Shown here: piece by piece, positions 1 through 10,035 of the stretch
Layout: every line of letters begins with the position of its first letter
Position numbering within the stretch: the stretch's first letter is position 1
NCBI RefSeq assembly: GCF_011682065.1
Contig: NZ_VUYU01000007.1
Location: 248,001 to 312,000 of the forward strand
Source of the DNA: Massilia rubra
GTDB taxonomy: Bacteria > Pseudomonadota > Gammaproteobacteria > Burkholderiales > Burkholderiaceae_D
Direction of reading: 5' to 3'
DNA: 64,000 nt
Translations under genes and position numbers: made by a program
The notes under the pieces: model-generated
What the model was told of the DNA's origin: nothing
The model's database searches: none
What the model saw: the letters and a program-made list of their open reading frames with translations, nothing else

Positions 1-2315
1 ATGTCGATATTCCCGCCCGACAGTTTGATATAGGCGCCGCCGCTGGTGAGCGTGATGTGCTTCTCGGCCGCCATCAGGATGTGCTCCTTGGTCGAGAGCA
101 CGGTGACGCTCTTGTCGGCCGTGATCTCGATGGCGTTGTGCTGGGCTTGCTGGATCAGCTTGCCCTTGTTGGCGATGCTGCGGATGTCGCCGTCGAGCGC
201 GAACTGTTCGATATCCTTGCCGGCCGTGTGCAGGATCGACTGGCCGGCGTAGTGCTGCTGGTTGTGGCGCGCCACCGTGTCCATGTTCTTGCCGGCGAAG
301 TGGGTCTGGTCCATCGGCGTGGCGCTGGCGATGCCGGCCGCGGCCGTGATCGCGATGACCGGCGCCCCGCCCGGCATGCGGCCTTTGGCGGCGCTTTCGT
401 CGCCGCTGCCGTGGCCGAGCGCGCTTACCGCCTCGGTCAGCGACTCTTGCGGCTTGGAATCGCGCGCGCCGCCTTCATGTTGCTCGGCGGCCTCGCCCAA
501 GCTCCTGGCCAGGTCGAGCGCCTGCTCCAGGCAACGCACCAGCTCGTCGCGGCTCAAGGTGCCGCCGACGGCGCGCGTGCGCCCGTCGGTCGAGAGCAGC
601 AGGCCGCGCGAGGCGCGCAGGGCGCCGGCGCCGTTGGTTTCCAGCGCGAAGCCTTCGCCACGACTGTCCTTGCGGCCCAGGTTGTCTTCGATGCGGGTGA
701 TATGGCCGAGCGACAGCTGGCTATGCTGATGGTCGCTTTTGAGCTGGGCCTGGATCTGCCCGCCCGAGTCGTCCAGCACCAGATGGTTGCTGCGCCCGCC
801 GGCCGTATTGCCGCCGCCTGGCGTCAGTTCGCGGCTGCGGATGCCCATCAGGGCTTTCTGGTCCGCCACCTTCCACGGCGGCATATTGTTTTCGTTGTAG
901 ACCGCGCCCGAAATGATGGGCCGGTCGGGGTTGCCGTCGAGCCAGACCACCACCACTTCCTGGCCTTTGCGCGGAATCGCATGCGCGCCCAGTTCGGCGC
1001 CGGCCCAGGGGCTCGACACCCGCAGCCAGGCCGAGCTGCGTTCATCGTTGCCGCCCACGCGGTCCCAGTGGAACTGCACCCGCACGCGGCCGTAGGCATC
1101 GGTAAACACATCGTCGCCGCCCGGGGTGACCACGGTGGCCGTCTGCGGCGCCAGGATGCGCGTGGCGCGGCTGTTGTAGCCGCGTCCCGGACGCCAGGCA
1201 ATACGCTTGCGGATGCAGGTGAAGCGGTTGCTGTACTCGGCCGGCGTATCGACCTGCTGCAGATAATTGTTGCTGATCGAATGATGCACGCCGACGATCA
1301 GGAATTCGTTCTGGCCGGCGCCGTCGGCGTCGTCGTGGAAATGTCCGTCCAGGCGGAAGCTGCGGCCCGGCATGCTGAAGCGGTTGTTCCCGCGCGCGGA
1401 AAAATGCTTGCCGCTCGCTTCGGTTTCTTCCATGCGCAGGCGGGCCTGGTCGGCGCCGGCGGCGCTGTCGGGAAAACCGTAGGCGCCGGTGTACTCGTAG
1501 GATTCGATCTTGAGCACGGTGCCCTGCAGGTTCACGGTCGGGACGTCGACATGGGCCGGATGGGGATGCTTGAAGTCGAAGCTCGACAGCGCGATGCTGG
1601 CCGCGACCAGGTCGCGCACGGGCGACCATTCGCCGATCGCATCTTCTTCCAGCGCGCCGCCGTGGCGCTGGAAGCGCACTTCCGGCTTGCCGTCGATCGG
1701 CGCGGCCTGGGGCGAGTCGTCCGACAGCACCAGCTTGTGCCCGCTGGCGCTGTGTTCGTACCAGTAATGCCAGCCGGCCGCTTCCCAGCGCCGGTGCAGG
1801 TAATTGTGGTCGTCTTCGGCGAACTGGCACGCCATGGTCATGCGCGGCTCGGGCGCGCGCAGGCGGCAATCCCAGTCGGGATGGGTGCCGTAATCGTCGA
1901 AGATGCTGGTGGTCTGCTCGCGCAGCGTGGTGTCGTGGAAAACGTAGTTGTCGCGGCGCAGCTTGAGGTAGGCCAGCCAGGGTTTCAGGACCATCGAGTA
2001 AAACGCCACGCTGCCGTCGGTGCGGCTGAGCTGGAAGGCGAACACGTAGCCGTTGAAGTAGCGCAGGGTGCCGTCGCCGCGCACCAGTTCGATGGTGACC
2101 ATCTTGCCCTGCACGTCCTTGAGGGCGATGCTGGCGTTATCGGACAGCACTTCGACGGTGTACTCGAAGTCGCGCGAAAGTTCCTCGCGCGCCTCGAGGC
2201 GGTTGGCCAGCAGCACATCGTCCGGCCCGTCCGCGTGCGGAAAGGTCAGGCGCATGAGGCGATTGTGTTGCCGGCTGAGCGCCATTGCCGCTACCGCCGC
2301 AGAAATACTACCCAT
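1..2315 (-). CDS. vgrG: Type VI secretion system tip protein VgrG (3' end beyond window)
   Basis: About 771 codons are visible and the frame is still open at base 1, so the C-terminus is missing. Read on the minus strand, the protein begins MGSISAAVAAMALSRQHN and continues with the gp27-like N-terminal half of VgrG. A gp5/OB-fold segment follows, with DAYGRVRVQFHWDR and SSAWLRVSSPWAGAELG. The visible C-terminal part ends in the DUF2345-type beta-helix with GGAYIKLSGGNID. The family forms the trimeric needle tip of the type VI secretion apparatus and often carries or recruits effectors. The start at 2315 has GAGGA ten bases upstream; a second ATG at 2285 is also possible. No other T6SS gene lies in the window, so this looks like an orphan or edge-of-cluster vgrG. 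Any effector would be to the left of base 1. Confidence 0.93.
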   Translation of the reverse strand, partial: MGSISAAVAAMALSRQHNRLMRLTFPHADGPDDVLLANRLEAREELSRDFEYTVEVLSDNASIALKDVQGKMVTIELVRGDGTLRYFNGYVFAFQLSRTDGSVAFYSMVLKPWLAYLKLRRDNYVFHDTTLREQTTSIFDDYGTHPDWDCRLRAPEPRMTMACQFAEDDHNYLHRRWEAAGWHYWYEHSASGHKLVLSDDSPQAAPIDGKPEVRFQRHGGALEEDAIGEWSPVRDLVAASIALSSFDFKHPHPAHVDVPTVNLQGTVLKIESYEYTGAYGFPDSAAGADQARLRMEETEASGKHFSARGNNRFSMPGRSFRLDGHFHDDADGAGQNEFLIVGVHHSISNNYLQQVDTPAEYSNRFTCIRKRIAWRPGRGYNSRATRILAPQTATVVTPGGDDVFTDAYGRVRVQFHWDRVGGNDERSSAWLRVSSPWAGAELGAHAIPRKGQEVVVVWLDGNPDRPIISGAVYNENNMPPWKVADQKALMGIRSRELTPGGGNTAGGRSNHLVLDDSGGQIQAQLKSDHQHSQLSLGHITRIEDNLGRKDSRGEGFALETNGAGALRASRGLLLSTDGRTRAVGGTLSRDELVRCLEQALDLARSLGEAAEQHEGGARDSKPQESLTEAVSALGHGSGDESAAKGRMPGGAPVIAITAAAGIASATPMDQTHFAGKNMDTVARHNQQHYAGQSILHTAGKDIEQFALDGDIRSIANKGKLIQQAQHNAIEITADKSVTVLSTKEHILMAAEKHITLTSGGAYIKLSGGNID

Positions 2316-2782: not shown

Positions 2783-5548
2783 ATGCTGCGAAGAGAATTC
2801 ATCGCCACTGTCGCCGCCTTGGGCGCAGTGAGCGCATGTGCGGTGACGCCGCCCCGGCCTGATCTGGAACTGCCCGATGTCGGCCCGGCGTTGGCAGCAC
2901 AGATGGATGCGCTGCTTATTTGGCTCGACAGCGCCACGCCCTGGCGCTCCTTCTTGTCGACGTCGCTCAATATCCTCATCCCCGCCAGGCTGGACGACGC
3001 TGCCCCGAGCTTGCTGCGCATCTATTCTGGAAAAGAACTGGCAAAGATCCGCTCGGTCGCGGGTTTCGAAGACTTTGGTGGCAAGCGCCTGATCGAACCC
3101 GGCAAACCAGCTCTGAGCTTGCTGTACTTTGCGCTAGCCAGTCCGCGCGTCAGGCTGCCCTCGGGTACGCCCAAGGATCATTATGCATCCCTGGCGCAGC
3201 TGGAAGACCTTGAAAATTACATCGTCGTCGCCGCGCCGCTGGATGACAGCATCCTTGACCTCGACAAGTATGCAATCGCCGTGTTCGCCTACGAATTCCG
3301 GCCGGGTGCAAAGACGCCGCACAGGCATCACGCCGACATGGTGTACTCGCGCACCGGGGTCAGCCGGGTCGGCACGACGCGCCACCATTGGGACAGGCAG
3401 CATCGCCGCTTCAGCAATATCCCCGCGCCGGAAGAGCCTGGCCTGAGCGGGACCCAGAACGCGTCTGTGACGCCCGCCCGCTTCGCGCTGTTCCTGGCGC
3501 AGGTAGTCGAGCAGGACAAGGCCCATTTTATTGGCGAGCACTTGCGCGACTGGAGCTATCAGTTCCTGCTGCCGGTGCGCAAAATCGTCACCGGCGATCC
3601 GCTGTTGCAAGGCCGCCAAGTGATTTTCAAGCAGTACCACCGCGACGAGAAACTGGCACGCCTGCTCAGCATGCGGGTAATCGGTGATGAACCTCTGGTG
3701 CTACCCGCGACCGTGGCATTCCAGGGAACCCAGCCCCCGTTTCTGCGTGTTACCTGCAGCACGACCGCAAGCACATCCCCGCTCCAGCGCGACAATACCT
3801 TCGGCACCGACCAGCAACTCGTATCGCTGGTGCCCGTTGCCTCGTCGGTATTGCTGGAACCTTTCCCGGCGCCGATGGTGCGCGAAGCCGCCCAGCGTAT
3901 CAACGGCAAGCGCGAACGCCTGCGTTTTCGCGTGCCCGCATTCTACGGTGAGTACAACAACAAGATCAGCAACCGGCGCTACACCACGCTCAAGGTGATC
4001 GAAAATCCGGTGCGGGAAGCCGTGGGCTTTGGCGTGGACGACATCGTGTTTAGCGGCATCCGCACCAACACCAGCTTCGTCGCGCCGCGCAACGGGCCGA
4101 CCTTCGTGAACATCCGCTACCAGGTATCCGAATCCGATGGCGAATCGGTGACCTACCTGGGACCCGGCTGCGGCGTAGCGGACTGGGAAGGGAAGATCAA
4201 AACAGGGAATTACTGGGCCGCACTGTTCCAGGATAATCTGTGCGACGGCTGCGTCAGCGCGGACCTGTCGCCGGCGCAGTGCATGCCGAATGCCGCTGCG
4301 CTCAACTTCGAGCAACTGCTGGCCCGGCCGTTCCTGCCCGCCTTTTCACTCGTCTCGGCCCCCGATTTCCTGCAGTCGGTTGATGGCATCGACCTCAACA
4401 AATACGATGATCATTTCCTGGAGGGTGGCACCGAAACGGTCAGCGGCGCCCGGGTCCGGGCCAACCCGCACCTGCTGCTCCCCGGGACGATGGGACGCGC
4501 GTTTCCACTGCGCTTCCCGAAAGGCGAGACGATCCGCCCCGATACGGCGTTAACGGTGACGGCGGTGGTATCGGCGGCAGCGGTGGCTCCCAAGCTGCAC
4601 GTGTTGCGCGACTACGAGAGCACCAACTCCCTGCCCGACACGGCATCGAATGTGTTTGCGCCTGGATGGGACATCACGTATTCGAATACGGGCACCAACA
4701 ACCAGTTCTATTTCGCGTCCTTCGGTCTGGGCTCGCCTTTTCCGGAAGATATGAAACTGTGCGCTGCGGCCAATGGCATGTGGCCGGCCTCTTCACCCGA
4801 TGCCGCACGCACCTTTTCGCCCAGCCTGGAAGGCGTGTACACGCTGGCGCCGTCAGCGGTCACCAGGACGTTTACCCGTCGACCGCCGACCGCGGTTCCC
4901 CTGCTCGACAGCGAGCTGGGAATACACAGCACAAGTCCGGCCGTACAAGACCAGCTCTTGCCGGCCTCGACCGGGTGGGATGGCGAGTGCGGCCCGTTTC
5001 TCATTGTCGACAATGGCGTACTGGAAGTCAATTTCACCGATATTGGCCGTGCAGACTATGTTCGCAATTTTTTCAGCGAACACAATACGATGCGCATGGA
5101 TGCGCTGCAAAACATCAAGGCCGAGGAGCTGATCGGCCGCATGGGCGCGCTGCGCACATGTATTCGCTACTTGCCACCCTACGTGCCCTTGAAGCAGGTC
5201 CGGCTGTCGGAGTTGTGGCTGGTCAGTGCCGAGCTTGTGCCGGACTGGAACCTCGGCGCCCTCGGCCATGGCATCCCGAAGCAGATGGTCGGGAACGACA
5301 AGCTCTGGGCAACCACGTCGCGGCTCGGCCCCGTGTCCGGCCGCGGGATGCTCTTCGTCTTTGCGGAGGGCGCCAGCGCTTGCAGAGACGCTGCCGGCAA
5401 AGCGAGTACGCGCCGCATCGCCAGTTGCAAGAGGGTATTCGTTTGCCAACTGGCGCAAACAAGTGCGAATCCGGATGACTGGAAGCTGGCGTGGACCGCC
5501 ATCCAGGCGCCCGGCGGCCCTGGGCCTTCCTCCTGGCATGTGCCTTGA
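2783..5548 (+). CDS. LodA/GoxA-like CTQ-dependent oxidase, predicted Tat lipoprotein
   Basis: The protein has 921 residues; LodA itself has about 726. LodA/GoxA enzymes oxidise amino acids with a self-processed cysteine tryptophylquinone and release hydrogen peroxide. The C-terminal third carries the family marks: LCAAANGMWPASSPDAARTF, PLLDSELG and GWDGECGPF. The probable cofactor residues are Cys660 and Trp732, 72 apart, similar to the LodA spacing. The N-terminus MLRREFIATVAALGAVSAC has a twin-arginine RRxF motif and a lipobox ending at about Cys19, so a Tat-exported lipoprotein is inferred. The segment between the signal and about residue 430 matches no LodA feature I recognise. GGAGG lies six bases before the ATG. 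The stop overlaps the start of the lodB-like gene (TGATG). Substrate is unknown. The family assignment rests on these motifs plus the LodB-like neighbour. Confidence 0.75.
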   Translation: MLRREFIATVAALGAVSACAVTPPRPDLELPDVGPALAAQMDALLIWLDSATPWRSFLSTSLNILIPARLDDAAPSLLRIYSGKELAKIRSVAGFEDFGGKRLIEPGKPALSLLYFALASPRVRLPSGTPKDHYASLAQLEDLENYIVVAAPLDDSILDLDKYAIAVFAYEFRPGAKTPHRHHADMVYSRTGVSRVGTTRHHWDRQHRRFSNIPAPEEPGLSGTQNASVTPARFALFLAQVVEQDKAHFIGEHLRDWSYQFLLPVRKIVTGDPLLQGRQVIFKQYHRDEKLARLLSMRVIGDEPLVLPATVAFQGTQPPFLRVTCSTTASTSPLQRDNTFGTDQQLVSLVPVASSVLLEPFPAPMVREAAQRINGKRERLRFRVPAFYGEYNNKISNRRYTTLKVIENPVREAVGFGVDDIVFSGIRTNTSFVAPRNGPTFVNIRYQVSESDGESVTYLGPGCGVADWEGKIKTGNYWAALFQDNLCDGCVSADLSPAQCMPNAAALNFEQLLARPFLPAFSLVSAPDFLQSVDGIDLNKYDDHFLEGGTETVSGARVRANPHLLLPGTMGRAFPLRFPKGETIRPDTALTVTAVVSAAAVAPKLHVLRDYESTNSLPDTASNVFAPGWDITYSNTGTNNQFYFASFGLGSPFPEDMKLCAAANGMWPASSPDAARTFSPSLEGVYTLAPSAVTRTFTRRPPTAVPLLDSELGIHSTSPAVQDQLLPASTGWDGECGPFLIVDNGVLEVNFTDIGRADYVRNFFSEHNTMRMDALQNIKAEELIGRMGALRTCIRYLPPYVPLKQVRLSELWLVSAELVPDWNLGALGHGIPKQMVGNDKLWATTSRLGPVSGRGMLFVFAEGASACRDAAGKASTRRIASCKRVFVCQLAQTSANPDDWKLAWTAIQAPGGPGPSSWHVP

Positions 5549-6600
5549 TGGCGGCGCTGCGCGCCTGCGACGTCGTGATTGCGGGCGCCGGTCCGGCCGG
5601 CTTGGCTGCTGCCATCACATGCGTGCAAGGGGGACTGCAAGCTTGCATCGTGACCAGGTCGCCACTGCCGGCGCGCACCCGACCCAGCCCGATGCAAAGC
5701 CTGCACCCGAAAGCCATGCCACTACTGGCACAGCTGGGCGCCGCGCCGGTACTTGACGCCTGCACCGAGGCCCTGTTCGACCGGATTGCGTCAGGCTCGG
5801 CCACCCACACGTTTTCCGCCTACGGGCCGCTGCCGGTCTACGGCTACCACGTCAAGCGCGAAAAATTCGACCAAGAGTTGTTGAACATCGCGATGCAAGC
5901 TGGAATTCCAGTCTACTTCGACCCGGTCGGCGATGTCATTGTCGACGATGGCCATGTGGTGGGCGTGATTACCAGGAGTGGCGCGCAACTGCATGCGCGC
6001 GCGGTCATCGACGCGACCGGCTATGCGCGGGTGCTGGCGCGCCGGCTGGGCCACGTGTCGAGGCCGTGTTCGCCGGCGTTCGTGGTGCATACCGGCCTCA
6101 TCGATGCCGACGCGGCCTTTCCCATGCGCGGCGCAACCCGCTTCGAAGGCCGTGCCGATGGCTGGTCCTGGTTCGCCACTGCCGCAAGTGGCGCGGTGAC
6201 GTGGACCAGCTTGCATGTTCGCGCAGCGCCGCACGACACCACGACGCAGCTTGCACGCTGCTCGGTTCCTGGCTCGGTGAGCGCCTTCGACGCCAGCTGG
6301 AAGCTGACCCGTCCGCTGGCCGCGCGCGGTATCCTGATGGCCGGCGAAGCCGCCGGCCGGCTCGACCCTGCGTGGGGGCAAGGAATCGTCAACGCGCTCG
6401 AATCCGGGATCGCGGCTGCCGCGACAGTGCTCGACAGTGCAGCGTCGCCCGCTCTCGCAGCATGGCTGTGGGCCGACTACGACGCTTGGTTTGTGGCGCG
6501 CCACGAAGAAGCATGCGGCGAACTGGGCAGCTACTACGCCCGTCAGGGAATTGCCATCCTGGACGGGCGATTCGTTTCTTCACCGTCAGGAGGCCTATGA
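5548..6600 (+). CDS. LodB-like FAD-dependent maturase of the CTQ enzyme
   Basis: The protein has 350 residues. Its N-terminal Rossmann dinucleotide-binding motif is VVIAGAGPAGLAAAI, and a second FAD-contact region near the C-terminus reads AGEAAGRLDPAWGQG. This is the arrangement of the halogenase/LodB-type flavoproteins. LodB proteins are needed in the cytoplasm to form the cysteine tryptophylquinone of their LodA partner, and lodA-lodB pairs are normally adjacent. Here the start codon shares a base with the lodA-like stop, indicating translational coupling. No signal peptide is present, so it should stay in the cytoplasm while its partner is exported. The last bases overlap the next gene (ATGA). 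The general flavoprotein call is firm; the maturase role is inferred from context. Confidence 0.78.
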   Translation: MAALRACDVVIAGAGPAGLAAAITCVQGGLQACIVTRSPLPARTRPSPMQSLHPKAMPLLAQLGAAPVLDACTEALFDRIASGSATHTFSAYGPLPVYGYHVKREKFDQELLNIAMQAGIPVYFDPVGDVIVDDGHVVGVITRSGAQLHARAVIDATGYARVLARRLGHVSRPCSPAFVVHTGLIDADAAFPMRGATRFEGRADGWSWFATAASGAVTWTSLHVRAAPHDTTTQLARCSVPGSVSAFDASWKLTRPLAARGILMAGEAAGRLDPAWGQGIVNALESGIAAAATVLDSAASPALAAWLWADYDAWFVARHEEACGELGSYYARQGIAILDGRFVSSPSGGL

Positions 6601-8342
6601 AAATCCGTGCCAGCGCCAAGCGCCGTCTGTTGCTGAAAACCTCGTTCGGGGCGATGTTTCCCTTAGCCGGCTGTAGTTGCCCCCTACCGGGCCGGCCAGC
6701 GGTCGCTCTCCAGCCGAGCGGGCAGTTTCCGTTCAAGCCGGCGCGGATTGCGCCCAAGTCGATCCCGCTGCTGTTCGACGTGCACGCCCATTTCTTCAAT
6801 GCAACCGATGTCCCGGTCAAGGGCTACCTGGCAGGTCCGATTGCGCACGAATTTCCGGAAGCCCTGCAGGCCGCTGTCAGGGCGGCGGCGCCGGTAGTGG
6901 AAGCGCTTGCGAACCGCCTCGCCATTTCGTGCGCCGACGAAATGGACAAGATCGCCACGCTGTTGGCACATGCACATGCGCTTGGCCTTGCGCCAGGCGC
7001 GGCCCAGCAAGCGCTGGTCGGCCTGATCGATGCCGATATCACACAGCACCAGCAGCGCATCGTGGCCGGGATTGTCAGCGCCGCCAGGGACAGCGATTTC
7101 GGGCGCTCGCTCGACGAAGCCGATGTGCGCTACCGGAGCCGACGGCTGGGGGGGCACGCCAACAAGCTGACCGGACCGCCGATTTCGCGCGACCTGGACC
7201 GGCTGTCAAGAGCGGTTGACCGCGAGTTCGGCAGTCCGCTCGATGGCCTGGTCGACCCGGACCTGGAGCGCGACGATCCAGGAAGCATCATCGCATTCAT
7301 TGGCGTCATGCTATCGCCGCGCCACCACAACTTGCGCAAGTTCCAGCGTGGCTATTCGGTTGATGACAGCGCCGCCGGCGTCGACGCTTGTTTCCCGTCG
7401 ATGGTCGATTTCGACCACTGGCTCGGCTGCCCGGACACGATCTCGTCCAAGCGCGACCAGATGCTGCTGCACGAACAGCTGGCGGTCCTCTCGGGCGGCT
7501 ACGTGCTGCCGATCGTCTGCTACAACCCATGGACCGATATCCTGAACAATAATGCGTCGCTGACGCTGGTGGAAGAAGCCATTCGCGATCGCGGGTTCGT
7601 GGGGGTCAAGGTGTATCCGCCGATGGGTTTCCTGCCGCTGGGCGGCGATCCGAAGATTTGTGGCGACTTCAAATTCCCCGACGGCGAGGAAGTCCGCAAG
7701 CGGATGGCCGCACTGTTTGCGCTGTGCGAAAAATACGGCGTCCCCGTCATGTCCCATACCTCGCACTCGATGGGCCGCGACAGGCAACACGATGCCTTGC
7801 CGGGCCCGGTCAACTGGGGCGCAGTGGCCAGGGCATTTCCGAATCTATCGATCCATGCGGCGCATTTCGGCGGCAACCACTATGCCGGGGAAGATCGCTG
7901 GCCGGATCAATTCGTCGCGTTGATGGGCAGGGATGAAGGGAAAAACGTGTACGCCGACCTGGCCTATCGGACCGAGTTGATGGGAACCGGCGACGATGTC
8001 GAGCGCGCACGCAAGCTGCTCAGCGGTCCGCTAAGCAAGAGCGGTACGGAGTTGACGTATCGGCGCCTGATGTACGGCACCGACTGGCACATGATGGCCA
8101 AGATGCGCGGCTGGGCCGGCTATCCGCACGCGCTGGCTCGCTTCGTGGAGTCGTTCGATGCGGACCCGGCGAAACCGGCCCGGCACGCGGTGTTTTATGA
8201 CACGGCGGTGCGCTGCTTCAAACTGCGAAAGACGGCGCCGGCGCCCGGGCAAGTGAGCACGACACGGCAGCGGCTGGAGGCATTTTATGCGCGCTGGCAG
8301 GTGCCGACGCCGCCATGGATGCAGACGCTGGACCGTCTTTGA
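6597..8342 (+). CDS. Metal-dependent amidohydrolase (amidohydrolase-2 type), predicted Tat lipoprotein
   Basis: The protein has 581 residues with a TIM-barrel amidohydrolase core. The metal site looks complete: FDVHAH gives His63 and His65, GVKVYPP gives Lys338, VMSHTSH gives His387, SIHAAHFGG gives His420/His423, and MYGTDWH gives Asp496. The N-terminus has KRRLLLKTSFG, a good twin-arginine motif, followed by the lipobox-like PLAGC, so a Tat-exported lipoprotein is inferred. AGGAGG stands just before the ATG, which overlaps the lodB-like stop as ATGA; the three genes are therefore one operon. Amidohydrolase-2 members hydrolyse or decarboxylate carboxylate and amide substrates. Which substrate applies here, and whether it acts before or after the CTQ enzyme, cannot be read from sequence. 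Confidence 0.85.
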   Translation: MKIRASAKRRLLLKTSFGAMFPLAGCSCPLPGRPAVALQPSGQFPFKPARIAPKSIPLLFDVHAHFFNATDVPVKGYLAGPIAHEFPEALQAAVRAAAPVVEALANRLAISCADEMDKIATLLAHAHALGLAPGAAQQALVGLIDADITQHQQRIVAGIVSAARDSDFGRSLDEADVRYRSRRLGGHANKLTGPPISRDLDRLSRAVDREFGSPLDGLVDPDLERDDPGSIIAFIGVMLSPRHHNLRKFQRGYSVDDSAAGVDACFPSMVDFDHWLGCPDTISSKRDQMLLHEQLAVLSGGYVLPIVCYNPWTDILNNNASLTLVEEAIRDRGFVGVKVYPPMGFLPLGGDPKICGDFKFPDGEEVRKRMAALFALCEKYGVPVMSHTSHSMGRDRQHDALPGPVNWGAVARAFPNLSIHAAHFGGNHYAGEDRWPDQFVALMGRDEGKNVYADLAYRTELMGTGDDVERARKLLSGPLSKSGTELTYRRLMYGTDWHMMAKMRGWAGYPHALARFVESFDADPAKPARHAVFYDTAVRCFKLRKTAPAPGQVSTTRQRLEAFYARWQVPTPPWMQTLDRL

Positions 8343-8400: not shown

Positions 8401-10035
8401 TTACATCCGGTCCAGCAACTGCTGTCCGGCCCGCTCGCTGAGCACCAGTACCAGCTTGAGCCTGGCGCGCGTCATGCCCACGAACAGCTTGCGCAGGACC
8501 AGTTCGTCGATCTGTTCGAAGTCGATCTCGGTGAAAATCACCGCCGGCGCCGACTGGCCCTTGAAGCGGTACACCGATTCGGCCAGCAAGCCGCCCTCGC
8601 GGTAGATCGGGGTGCCGAACAGGTCGTATTGGCCGGTGAAGGACCTGAGCGTGTGCGCCTCGCTGAGCTTGTCGAGGCGCAGGATGGCCGACTTGTCGCG
8701 GCCGCGGAACGAGGCGATGGCGATATCGTGGCGCGCGAAGCCGGCGCCCAGGCACAGGGTGACAGCGCGCCGCGTCTGCGCCAGCATGGCCTCGGTGTCG
8801 CCTTCCGGATACATCAGCTCCTCGATCTCGGCGCCCTTGAAGGGACTACCGGCCTGGACCGGCGGATGGACGGCGCCGATCGAGGCCAGCATGTCGATAA
8901 TCTGGCGCGGGCTGCGGAAGTTGGTGTCCGAATGCAAGGTGACCCAGCCCGGCAGCGGCACCGTGGGACGGCCGTACAGGTTCTGGTTGGGGTCTTCCAG
9001 CCAGATGGCGCGGCCCTCGTCCTTGAGCATGCGCAGCAGGATATCGCGCCAGGCCAGCGAAAAATCCTGGCCCTCGTCGACGATCAGCACATCGTATTTC
9101 CAGCTCTCCGGCAGGGCGGCGCCGGCCATGCGCGCTTCGATCTGGTCCCACACGCCGGGCGCGGCGTAGTCGGGGATGTGGCCCTGGGCGCGCAGGAAGG
9201 CGTCGCTGAGCATGTGGAAGGTCGCCACCCGTCCGCCGGCGGGAACGACTTGCCCGATATGGTCGGCCAGCGGCCGGTTGTAGCACACGTACAGGGGCGA
9301 CAGGCCGGCGTCGATGGCCCCCGCGTATTCGGCCAGCGCCAGCTGGGTCTTGCCGCTGCCGGCGGTGCCGGACACGCGCAGGCGGAACGGGGTAAATTCC
9401 AGCTTGCGCGCCCAGGTCGCCAGCCCACCGGACAGGCGCGTAACCATGGCCGCCGCATTGCCGATCATGGCGCTCGGATCGGGCCGCAGGCTGAGCATGT
9501 TGCCGAGAAAGCGCGTCACTTTCTCGAACTGCTCGCCCGGCTTGCTGTCGGTGATCGGCAGGATCTCGCGGATCACCCGCGCCAGGCGGTCTTTATTGGT
9601 GGCGTCGATGATGTGGCGCGGGTCGATCCCCGCCAGCTGCGGACTACGCACCAGGTAGTCGGGGCAGTACAGCAGGTAGTCGATCGACAGCTCGCCGCCG
9701 AAGCGCTCGGTCAGGCCTTTGATGGAGCGCATCAGGTGATTGGCGACCTTGCGCGGCTTGCCCTCGTAGTGCTTGACCAGGCCATCGGCCGTTTCGTTGA
9801 GCAAGCCCGATTTCTGCTCGATCAGCAGCAGGCGCCCGCTCGGCGCGACGACGATGAAGTCGATCTCGCCGAAGGCGGAAAAGCCATTCTCGACATTGGT
9901 CCAGTGCACGCCGTGGTAGATGCGGTAGGGGGCATCGCCCAGGGTGCGTTCGAGATAGCCCAGCGTGTCGACCTCGCGCACGGCGCTGCCGGTGACCGCC
10001 ATTTCTTGCCAGCCGGTGGGATGAATGTGGGCCAT
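8401..10035 (-). CDS. NERD nuclease-like domain fused to UvrD/SF1-type helicase
   Basis: The protein has 544 residues. Residues about 25-130 form a NERD (nuclease-related) domain with the GEIDF and IEQKSG elements (Asp59, Glu73, Lys75). From about residue 215 an SF1 ATPase follows: GTAGSGKT (223-230) is Walker A, VDEGQDF (Asp320-Glu321) is Walker B, NFRSP is a motif-IV-like element, and VYRFKGQSAPAV and FVGMTRAR are the late UvrD motifs. The 544 residues are short for UvrD, and accessory subdomains appear reduced. Related NERD-helicases are thought to act on DNA in repair or phage defence; no specific role is shown here. It is transcribed alone, convergent with the amidohydrolase operon and divergent from the signalling operon. 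Confidence 0.88.
   Translation of the reverse strand: MAHIHPTGWQEMAVTGSAVREVDTLGYLERTLGDAPYRIYHGVHWTNVENGFSAFGEIDFIVVAPSGRLLLIEQKSGLLNETADGLVKHYEGKPRKVANHLMRSIKGLTERFGGELSIDYLLYCPDYLVRSPQLAGIDPRHIIDATNKDRLARVIREILPITDSKPGEQFEKVTRFLGNMLSLRPDPSAMIGNAAAMVTRLSGGLATWARKLEFTPFRLRVSGTAGSGKTQLALAEYAGAIDAGLSPLYVCYNRPLADHIGQVVPAGGRVATFHMLSDAFLRAQGHIPDYAAPGVWDQIEARMAGAALPESWKYDVLIVDEGQDFSLAWRDILLRMLKDEGRAIWLEDPNQNLYGRPTVPLPGWVTLHSDTNFRSPRQIIDMLASIGAVHPPVQAGSPFKGAEIEELMYPEGDTEAMLAQTRRAVTLCLGAGFARHDIAIASFRGRDKSAILRLDKLSEAHTLRSFTGQYDLFGTPIYREGGLLAESVYRFKGQSAPAVIFTEIDFEQIDELVLRKLFVGMTRARLKLVLVLSERAGQQLLDRM

Follow-up and report, generated by a model that had tools for sequence, protein, structure and literature searches.

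Does a 64,000-nucleotide stretch of the Massilia rubra genome (contig NZ_VUYU01000007.1, positions 248,001 to 312,000; hereafter the window) carry, at positions 2783-8342, an exported enzyme whose quinone cofactor is built from its own cysteine and tryptophan, and do the two genes that follow it belong to the same system? A sequence-only reading had described this locus as an operon for a twin-arginine translocation (Tat)-exported lipoprotein of the LodA/GoxA type bearing cysteine tryptophylquinone (CTQ), a LodB-like maturase and an amidohydrolase acting on the same nitrogen compound. Our follow-up makes it reasonably probable that gene 1 represents a remote, so far unrecognised branch of LodA/GoxA type, in which a Cys660-Trp667 quinone would be made with the help of gene 2 and the product exported by Tat, with gene 3 lying outside the conserved module. 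In terms of the earlier description, the tryptophylquinone-type protein, the flavoprotein maturase, the Tat-like signal and the lipobox held up, whereas Trp732 as cofactor residue, membership in the Pfam sense, the novelty of the export route and the pairing with the hydrolase did not.

The three open reading frames were verified within this interval; all lie on the + strand, and their coordinates bear out the description of three overlapping genes. Gene 1 (2783..5548, +; 921 amino acids), with GGAGG at 2771-2775, encodes a putative tryptophylquinone enzyme of a divergent LodA-like family; gene 2 (5548..6600, +; 350 amino acids) a candidate FAD monooxygenase-like maturase of QhpG/GoxB/LodB type; and gene 3 (6597..8342, +; 581 amino acids) a predicted Tat-lipoprotein of the amidohydrolase superfamily (Amidohydro_2). 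The ATG at 5548, which has one base in common with the TGA of gene 1, is most likely the start of gene 2, its mechanical start being an in-frame GTG upstream at 5491. Genes 2 and 3 overlap by ATGA, and the overlaps suggest translational coupling of the three genes.

Remote similarity of gene 1 to LodA

By current definition gene 1 is not a LodA/GoxA member, because the Pfam models do not match it: at E <= 10, LodA_N (PF17990) and LodA_C (PF18417) detected none of the seven members of the gene 1 family, against 8 of 8 LodA-family controls at E <= 0.01, and in this sense the earlier assignment fails. Gene 1 had no match among Pfam, NCBIfam enzyme families or PDB sequences, its sole NCBIfam match being TAT_signal_seq (7.4 bits, under the cut-off of 16.7). 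The six aligned homologues matched two Pfam families with one member each (a Tat-signal family at E 0.015, the other plainly spurious), the NCBIfam Tat-signal model was found in two of the six, and a PDB profile search with the gene 1 family returned nothing. A genuine LodA, matching both LodA models, is encoded with a LodB-type partner elsewhere in the same genome (contig 74; L024, 5207-8504).

We compared a 7-row gene 1 alignment with eight LodA-family proteins by hhalign, with alternative alignments also listed, and set the score on occupied columns against 300 column shuffles and the reversed profile; a second comparison used another LodA subset (5 of the 8), extra gene 1 rows and 200 shuffles (L039, a Hymenobacter LodA-like protein, was excluded from set A3). 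The best block, residues 481-535 of gene 1 (probability 46.9%, E 2e-4), scored 46.6, compared with a maximum of 26.5 over the 300 shuffles and 19.1 for the reversed profile; with the second LodA subset the top score was 45.1, and the 200 shuffles reached at most 29.5.

Three blocks make up this similarity. Block 1 (YSRTGVSRVGTTRHHW; 3344..3391, +) falls on LodA PaiGIaRvGns, as the fifth alternative with the first LodA set, where gene 1 RTGVSRVG stands opposite LodA-family SIGVGRVG, and as the second alternative with the LodA subset. Block 2 (DNLCDGCVSAD...PAFSLVSAPDF; 4223..4384, +), on LodA W.DDtSDGPV...P.YAP, was the top alignment in five comparisons. Block 3 (VFAPGWDITY...SPFPEDMKLCAAANGMWPASSP; 4628..4807, +) falls on LodA FxPGIExTW...PWQxDxxxC...WWPxxxP, and was recovered whole in one comparison. 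With the LodA subset, the three best alternatives were these same three blocks with their order kept. The similarity goes beyond chance in the shuffle test, and gene 1 thus appears to be a remote, homologous relative of LodA; this kinship has firmer support than does the precise register of the cofactor residues, since the Cys/Trp part was recovered once.

Candidate cofactor residues

LodA numbering was counted along PDB 3weu, in which PWQADFFNC ends with C516 and the latter of the paired tryptophans in YYSYWWPPQSP is W581. For the Cys/Trp part of block 3, the alignment is the second alternative of one hhalign comparison (E 0.09), which sets SPFPEDMKLC660...GMW667PASSP on PWQADFFDC...YWWPPQSP, and thereby Cys660 (4760..4762, +) opposite LodA Cys516 and Trp667 (4781..4783, +) opposite LodA Trp581. 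In 9 of 9 homologues ED.KLCA is present and the spacing from the cysteine to Trp667 is fixed at 7. Asp656 (4748..4750, +) falls on the conserved cofactor aspartate (LodA D512, QhpC D33; both D-x3-C). The accessible part of PMC7876137 describes this D-x3-C aspartate as conserved in tryptophylquinone enzymes, reports that GoxA mutated at it still forms CTQ, and gives the QhpC residues as D33, C37 and W43.

Of the cofactor marks claimed earlier, Cys660 is thus supported by its alignment as the cofactor cysteine, whereas Trp732 does not fall on Trp581. We put Trp667 in its place as the likelier quinone-forming partner, because it stands opposite Trp581 in this one alignment and keeps its fixed spacing. 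Trp732 of GWDGECGP (4976..4978, +) is invariant, and may lie in the active site. The length of the spacing is no guide to the partner tryptophan, as it ranges across the listed LodA-family proteins from 5 (L037) to 65 (LodA).

At L037 (2435-5842), Paraburkholderia encodes a LodA-like protein with a fused redox domain that contains iron (Haem_oxygenas_2); it has a very short Cys-Trp loop and a weak match to the QHNDH gamma model (E 0.0068, under the cut-off).

Distribution of gene 1 homologues

Eight other gene 1 loci were analysed, comprising Pedobacter (L007), a Flammeovirgaceae metagenome-assembled genome (MAG; L008), a Bacteroidia MAG (L009) and Chryseobacterium (L010); three plasmid records, from Acaryochloris (L019), Burkholderia stagnalis (L020) and Cupriavidus (L021); and, from the same bacterial family as the window, genome G662 (L022). 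The gene 1 copies of L010 and L021, each split over two frames, were entered as separate pieces. At these two loci (L010, 7857-11610; L021, 5575-9134) both gene 1 and the gene 2 relative are frame-split or broken, representing either decayed genes or sequencing errors.

Within the samples covered, gene 1 is rare. Among 392 same-family genomes it was found in the window's genome and one other; its profile found only the window's genome among 399 genomes of the order, and in a 345-genome sample of the phylum of Pedobacter only the search centre carried a homologue. Two extra plasmid searches with other family members gave the same three records again. None of 61 pattern matches in viral contigs was confirmed, and no homologue was found in phages. 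Two weak matches arose at class level, G303 and G327; the former was rejected, as its open reading frames fail the gene 1 profile.

Gene 2 as a putative maturase

Relatives of gene 2 lie directly downstream of the gene 1 homologue in 7 of the 8 other loci (E-values here refer to a small local set). Gene 2 matched the QhpG model best (E 1.5e-28, 99.9 bits, under the equivalog cut-off of 240), followed by GoxB (E 1.7e-16, 60.2 bits) and LodB (E 2.2e-8, 33.6 bits), both under the equivalog cut-off of 400. The three models match 14 of 14 flavoproteins compared, but they are not specific to these: many further flavoproteins score as well, and the QhpG model is positive in 14 of 14 control genomes. 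Relatives in the PDB are CmlS (8e-13, the best) and QhpG (7ctq; 1.3e-4). These sub-cut-off matches, together with the absence of a signal peptide by eye, agree with the earlier description of gene 2 as a signal-less LodB-like flavoprotein.

In a tree built without L021 (frame breaks) and L010 (split in two), gene 2 of the window and its five intact relatives form one side of a branch with 100/100 support, opposite seven LodB/GoxB types, and several branches are long. The window's protein has GEAA instead of GDAA.

Export signals

By eye, the N-terminal signal of gene 1 (MLRREFIATVAALGAVSAC; 2783..2839, +) reads MLRREF...AVSAC19, with twin arginines R3R4 in an RRxF motif and a lipobox V16-S17-A18-C19, so both motifs named in the earlier description are present (the Tat model reaching 7.4 of 16.7 bits). 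Across the nine family loci, twin arginines occur in four (the window, L007, L009 and L022) and a clear lipobox in the window only; L010 has RK, L008 has no twin arginines, L019 and L020 are without a signal when read from the starts used, and the start of L021 is unclear.

The Tat route is not new for the LodA family. The claim that no described LodA enzyme is exported in this way is contradicted by the accessible part of PMC3948610 (2013), which describes a twin-arginine signal and Tat export for Marinomonas mediterranea GoxA, and by the N-terminus of Martelella GoxA (MKRRDFLSSVGVGLGLSV), which is of twin-arginine type. Lipidation of a LodA-type enzyme did not turn up in the searches made of open-access papers.

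Gene 3, an amidohydrolase outside the conserved module

Gene 3 matched Amidohydro_2 (E 5.5e-16, 59.6 bits against a cut-off of 26.4) and has no sequence relative in the PDB. By eye it carries the metal-site motifs HxH (H63, H65), the Lys of GVKVYPP, the His residues of SHTS and HAAH and the Asp of GTDW, as well as a signal RRLLLK...LAGC26 with twin arginines and lipobox Cys26. These motifs agree with the earlier description of an amidohydrolase with a metal site, twin arginines and a lipobox.

As a partner of gene 1, gene 3 fared differently. No homologue was found near any of the 8 other gene 1 loci, or anywhere in the 8 other gene 1-bearing genomes or records (three of which are single replicons), and the 10 loci of gene 3 relatives inspected (two on short contigs) have neither gene 1 nor gene 2 nor a LodA gene as a neighbour. 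The functional pairing of genes 1 and 3 is thus unsupported, and of the proposed three-gene neighbourhood only the gene 1-gene 2 pair recurs. In Pedobacter (L007), an M19-type hydrolase lies upstream of the gene 1 homologue; by blastp it is not a gene 3 homologue.

Among plasmids, 26 records, most of them from rhizobia, carry relatives of gene 3; so do 11 of 294 genomes of the window's family, counting the window's own. Twin arginines and a lipobox are present at 4 of 4 rhizobial-type loci (L029-L032) and, among six loci of the window's family, at L057, L058 and L061; L060 has twin arginines and no clear lipobox, and the starts of L056 and L059 are not settled. Gene 3 therefore appears to be an independent Tat lipoprotein that was recruited to the operon, as its relatives carry such signals without gene 1 or gene 2 neighbours. 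In two genomes of the window's family (L058, 3824-7889; L059, 7825-11747) a pair of similarly sized genes, perhaps the usual partners of gene 3, comes after the gene 3 relative; a LodB query matched at L058 with E 0.004 over 38 residues of a 559-residue frame.

Genomic surroundings

On the far side of gene 3, and convergent with it, lies a gene for a NERD-domain UvrD-like helicase (window 8401-10035, -). VgrG (window 3-2315, -, running on leftward; L043, 6190-12315) stands in a type VI secretion operon divergent from gene 1, with genes for a Tle3-type phospholipase effector and a Tla3 adapter after it. A link to type VI secretion through this VgrG was set aside, the likely cargo and adapter (Tle3, Tla3) being on its far side. 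No Rfam match was found, and scans for promoter-like sites (4 against 1.6 expected) and terminator-like sites (4 against 5.0 expected) were uninformative.

Comparison with known systems and alternative explanations

With the LodA/GoxA family the gene 1 system shares the three collinear blocks, the D-x3-C...WPxxxP motif, a maturase gene directly downstream and, as in GoxA among some members, a Tat-like signal; it differs in escaping LodA_N and LodA_C, in its own long N-terminal region, in its short and fixed Cys-Trp spacing and, in the window's member, in the lipobox. The GoxA-GoxB pairs of Martelella and Marinomonas likewise combine a Tat-like signal on the oxidase with a downstream maturase, but Martelella GoxA is recognised by the LodA models and lacks a lipobox within residues 1-40, and no amidohydrolase is among the annotated neighbours at its locus. 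QhpC, the QHNDH gamma subunit, has a similarly short D-x3-C-x(n)-W, and QhpG is the best NCBIfam match of gene 2; however, QhpC is a small subunit and gene 1 encodes 921 amino acids, and the three genes of the operon include no radical SAM enzyme, protease or haem subunit. Gene 3 shares its N-terminal signals and Amidohydro_2 match with Tat-lipoproteins from rhizobia and from the window's family, differing in that the loci read for those proteins have no CTQ or maturase neighbour.

Several results weigh against placing genes 1 and 2 beside LodA and its maturase. Pfam, PDB and NCBIfam give the seven family members no enzyme-family match, and a forced global alignment of gene 1 with LodA is meaningless. 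Three other profile comparisons end at the PGWDITY half of block 3, and non-collinear alternatives appear as third and fourth in the alternatives listing, third in the shuffle-test comparison and fourth with the LodA subset. The second-hit score of 25.1 exceeds every second-best shuffle score (<=23.0) but is beaten by the top score in 4 of 300 shuffles. The two AlphaFold models of gene 1 were too poor for a fold search (predicted local distance difference test 41.5 for the whole and 29.2 for residues 425-765). At the Acaryochloris locus a gene 2 neighbour is missing. A search of the complete plasmid collection with gene 2 was negative at 1e-5, which makes its kinship to the copies in Burkholderia and Cupriavidus weak. 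Gene 2 of the window, like that of L009, also has Gln at the Glu of the GE motif, which is kept in L007, L008, L020, L021, L022, CmlS and 7 of 7 LodB/GoxB types. Through CmlS, we equate this Glu with QhpG Glu42 (QhpG itself lies outside the alignment); the accessible part of PMC7876137 describes Glu42 as common to QhpG and CmlS, and as one of the residues whose mutation nearly abolished activity and/or lowered substrate affinity. Either the chemistry of the window's protein would be adjusted or its activity lower.

How do other explanations fare? A cofactor made from Cys660 and Trp732, as first proposed, would fit the invariance of Trp732 in the 7-row alignment, the WDG following in 9 of 9 sequences and a spacing of 72 that is similar to the 65 of LodA, yet we regard it as quite improbable: the only alignment that covers the region sets Trp667, with the shared WPxxxP, on Trp581, the spacings of the LodA-family proteins listed span so wide a range that length says little, and in the nine gene 1 sequences the distance to Trp667 is constant while that to the WDG tryptophan varies from 52 to 74. 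It is also unlikely that gene 1 is an unrelated secreted protein using its Cys/Trp motif for another purpose, next to an ordinary flavoprotein hydroxylase or halogenase with some other substrate. The missing enzyme-family match of gene 1, the halogenase-like CmlS as the best PDB match of gene 2 and the Glu-to-Gln change would agree with this, but the profile similarity lies in collinear, shuffle-tested blocks, the gene 2 clade is tied to gene 1, and QhpG and GoxB are themselves structurally closest to CmlS (PMC7876137, in the part accessible). With the Cys/Trp register coming from one comparison only, we have lowered our confidence in the main reading as a whole and slightly raised it for these two alternatives.

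A single pathway, with a CTQ oxidase and the amidohydrolase sharing one nitrogenous substrate at the surface of the membrane, is in our view also quite improbable. In its favour, genes 2 and 3 overlap by ATGA and genes 1 and 3 carry matching Tat and lipobox motifs; the idea of a two-enzyme pathway rests on this single operon. Against it, gene 3 is missing from all 8 other gene 1 loci and from the 8 other genomes or records, and its relatives stand apart from gene 1, gene 2 and LodA at all 10 loci inspected. Amidohydro_2 enzymes, moreover, span many chemistries and are not confined to nitrogen compounds, which we count against it as well.

Implications for tryptophylquinone enzymes

Taken together, genes 1 and 2 are most likely a novel and divergent branch of an enzyme and maturase type that is already known. 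The gene arrangement, the conserved motifs, the kinship of the maturase and the signal motifs, all read from sequence, would be consistent with quinone formation, export, lipidation and amine oxidation by the gene 1 product. Mechanistically, the gene 2 flavoprotein would hydroxylate Trp667 of the folded or folding gene 1 protein in the cytoplasm, after which a thioether would form at Cys660, with Asp656 beside the cofactor. Tat would then carry the finished, folded enzyme out, to be held in the organism of the window by a lipid anchor, and the exported enzyme would oxidise (deaminate) an amine or amino acid. Gene 3 would be a metal-dependent hydrolase, co-translated here and sharing the Tat-lipoprotein route, but standing outside the conserved module.

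Quinone enzymes with a protein-derived cofactor come in few known kinds, and the gene 1 branch entirely escapes the models of Pfam and NCBIfam applied here. It is possible, and we suggest it more tentatively than the reading itself, that gene 1 represents a third tryptophylquinone branch beside LodA/GoxA and the QHNDH gamma subunit, with Cys-x6-Trp in a large LodA-like protein and a maturase clade of its own, some members being exported, at least one lipid-anchored and others (Acaryochloris and Burkholderia, with no signal at the starts read) intracellular. If the cofactor is borne out, the family would be widened to a cyanobacterial plasmid, Bacteroidota and Proteobacteria. With its fixed spacing, Cys-x6-Trp marks an exact position for tests, and a comparison with the maturases QhpG and GoxB could reveal what decides between direct and remote hydroxylation of the tryptophan.

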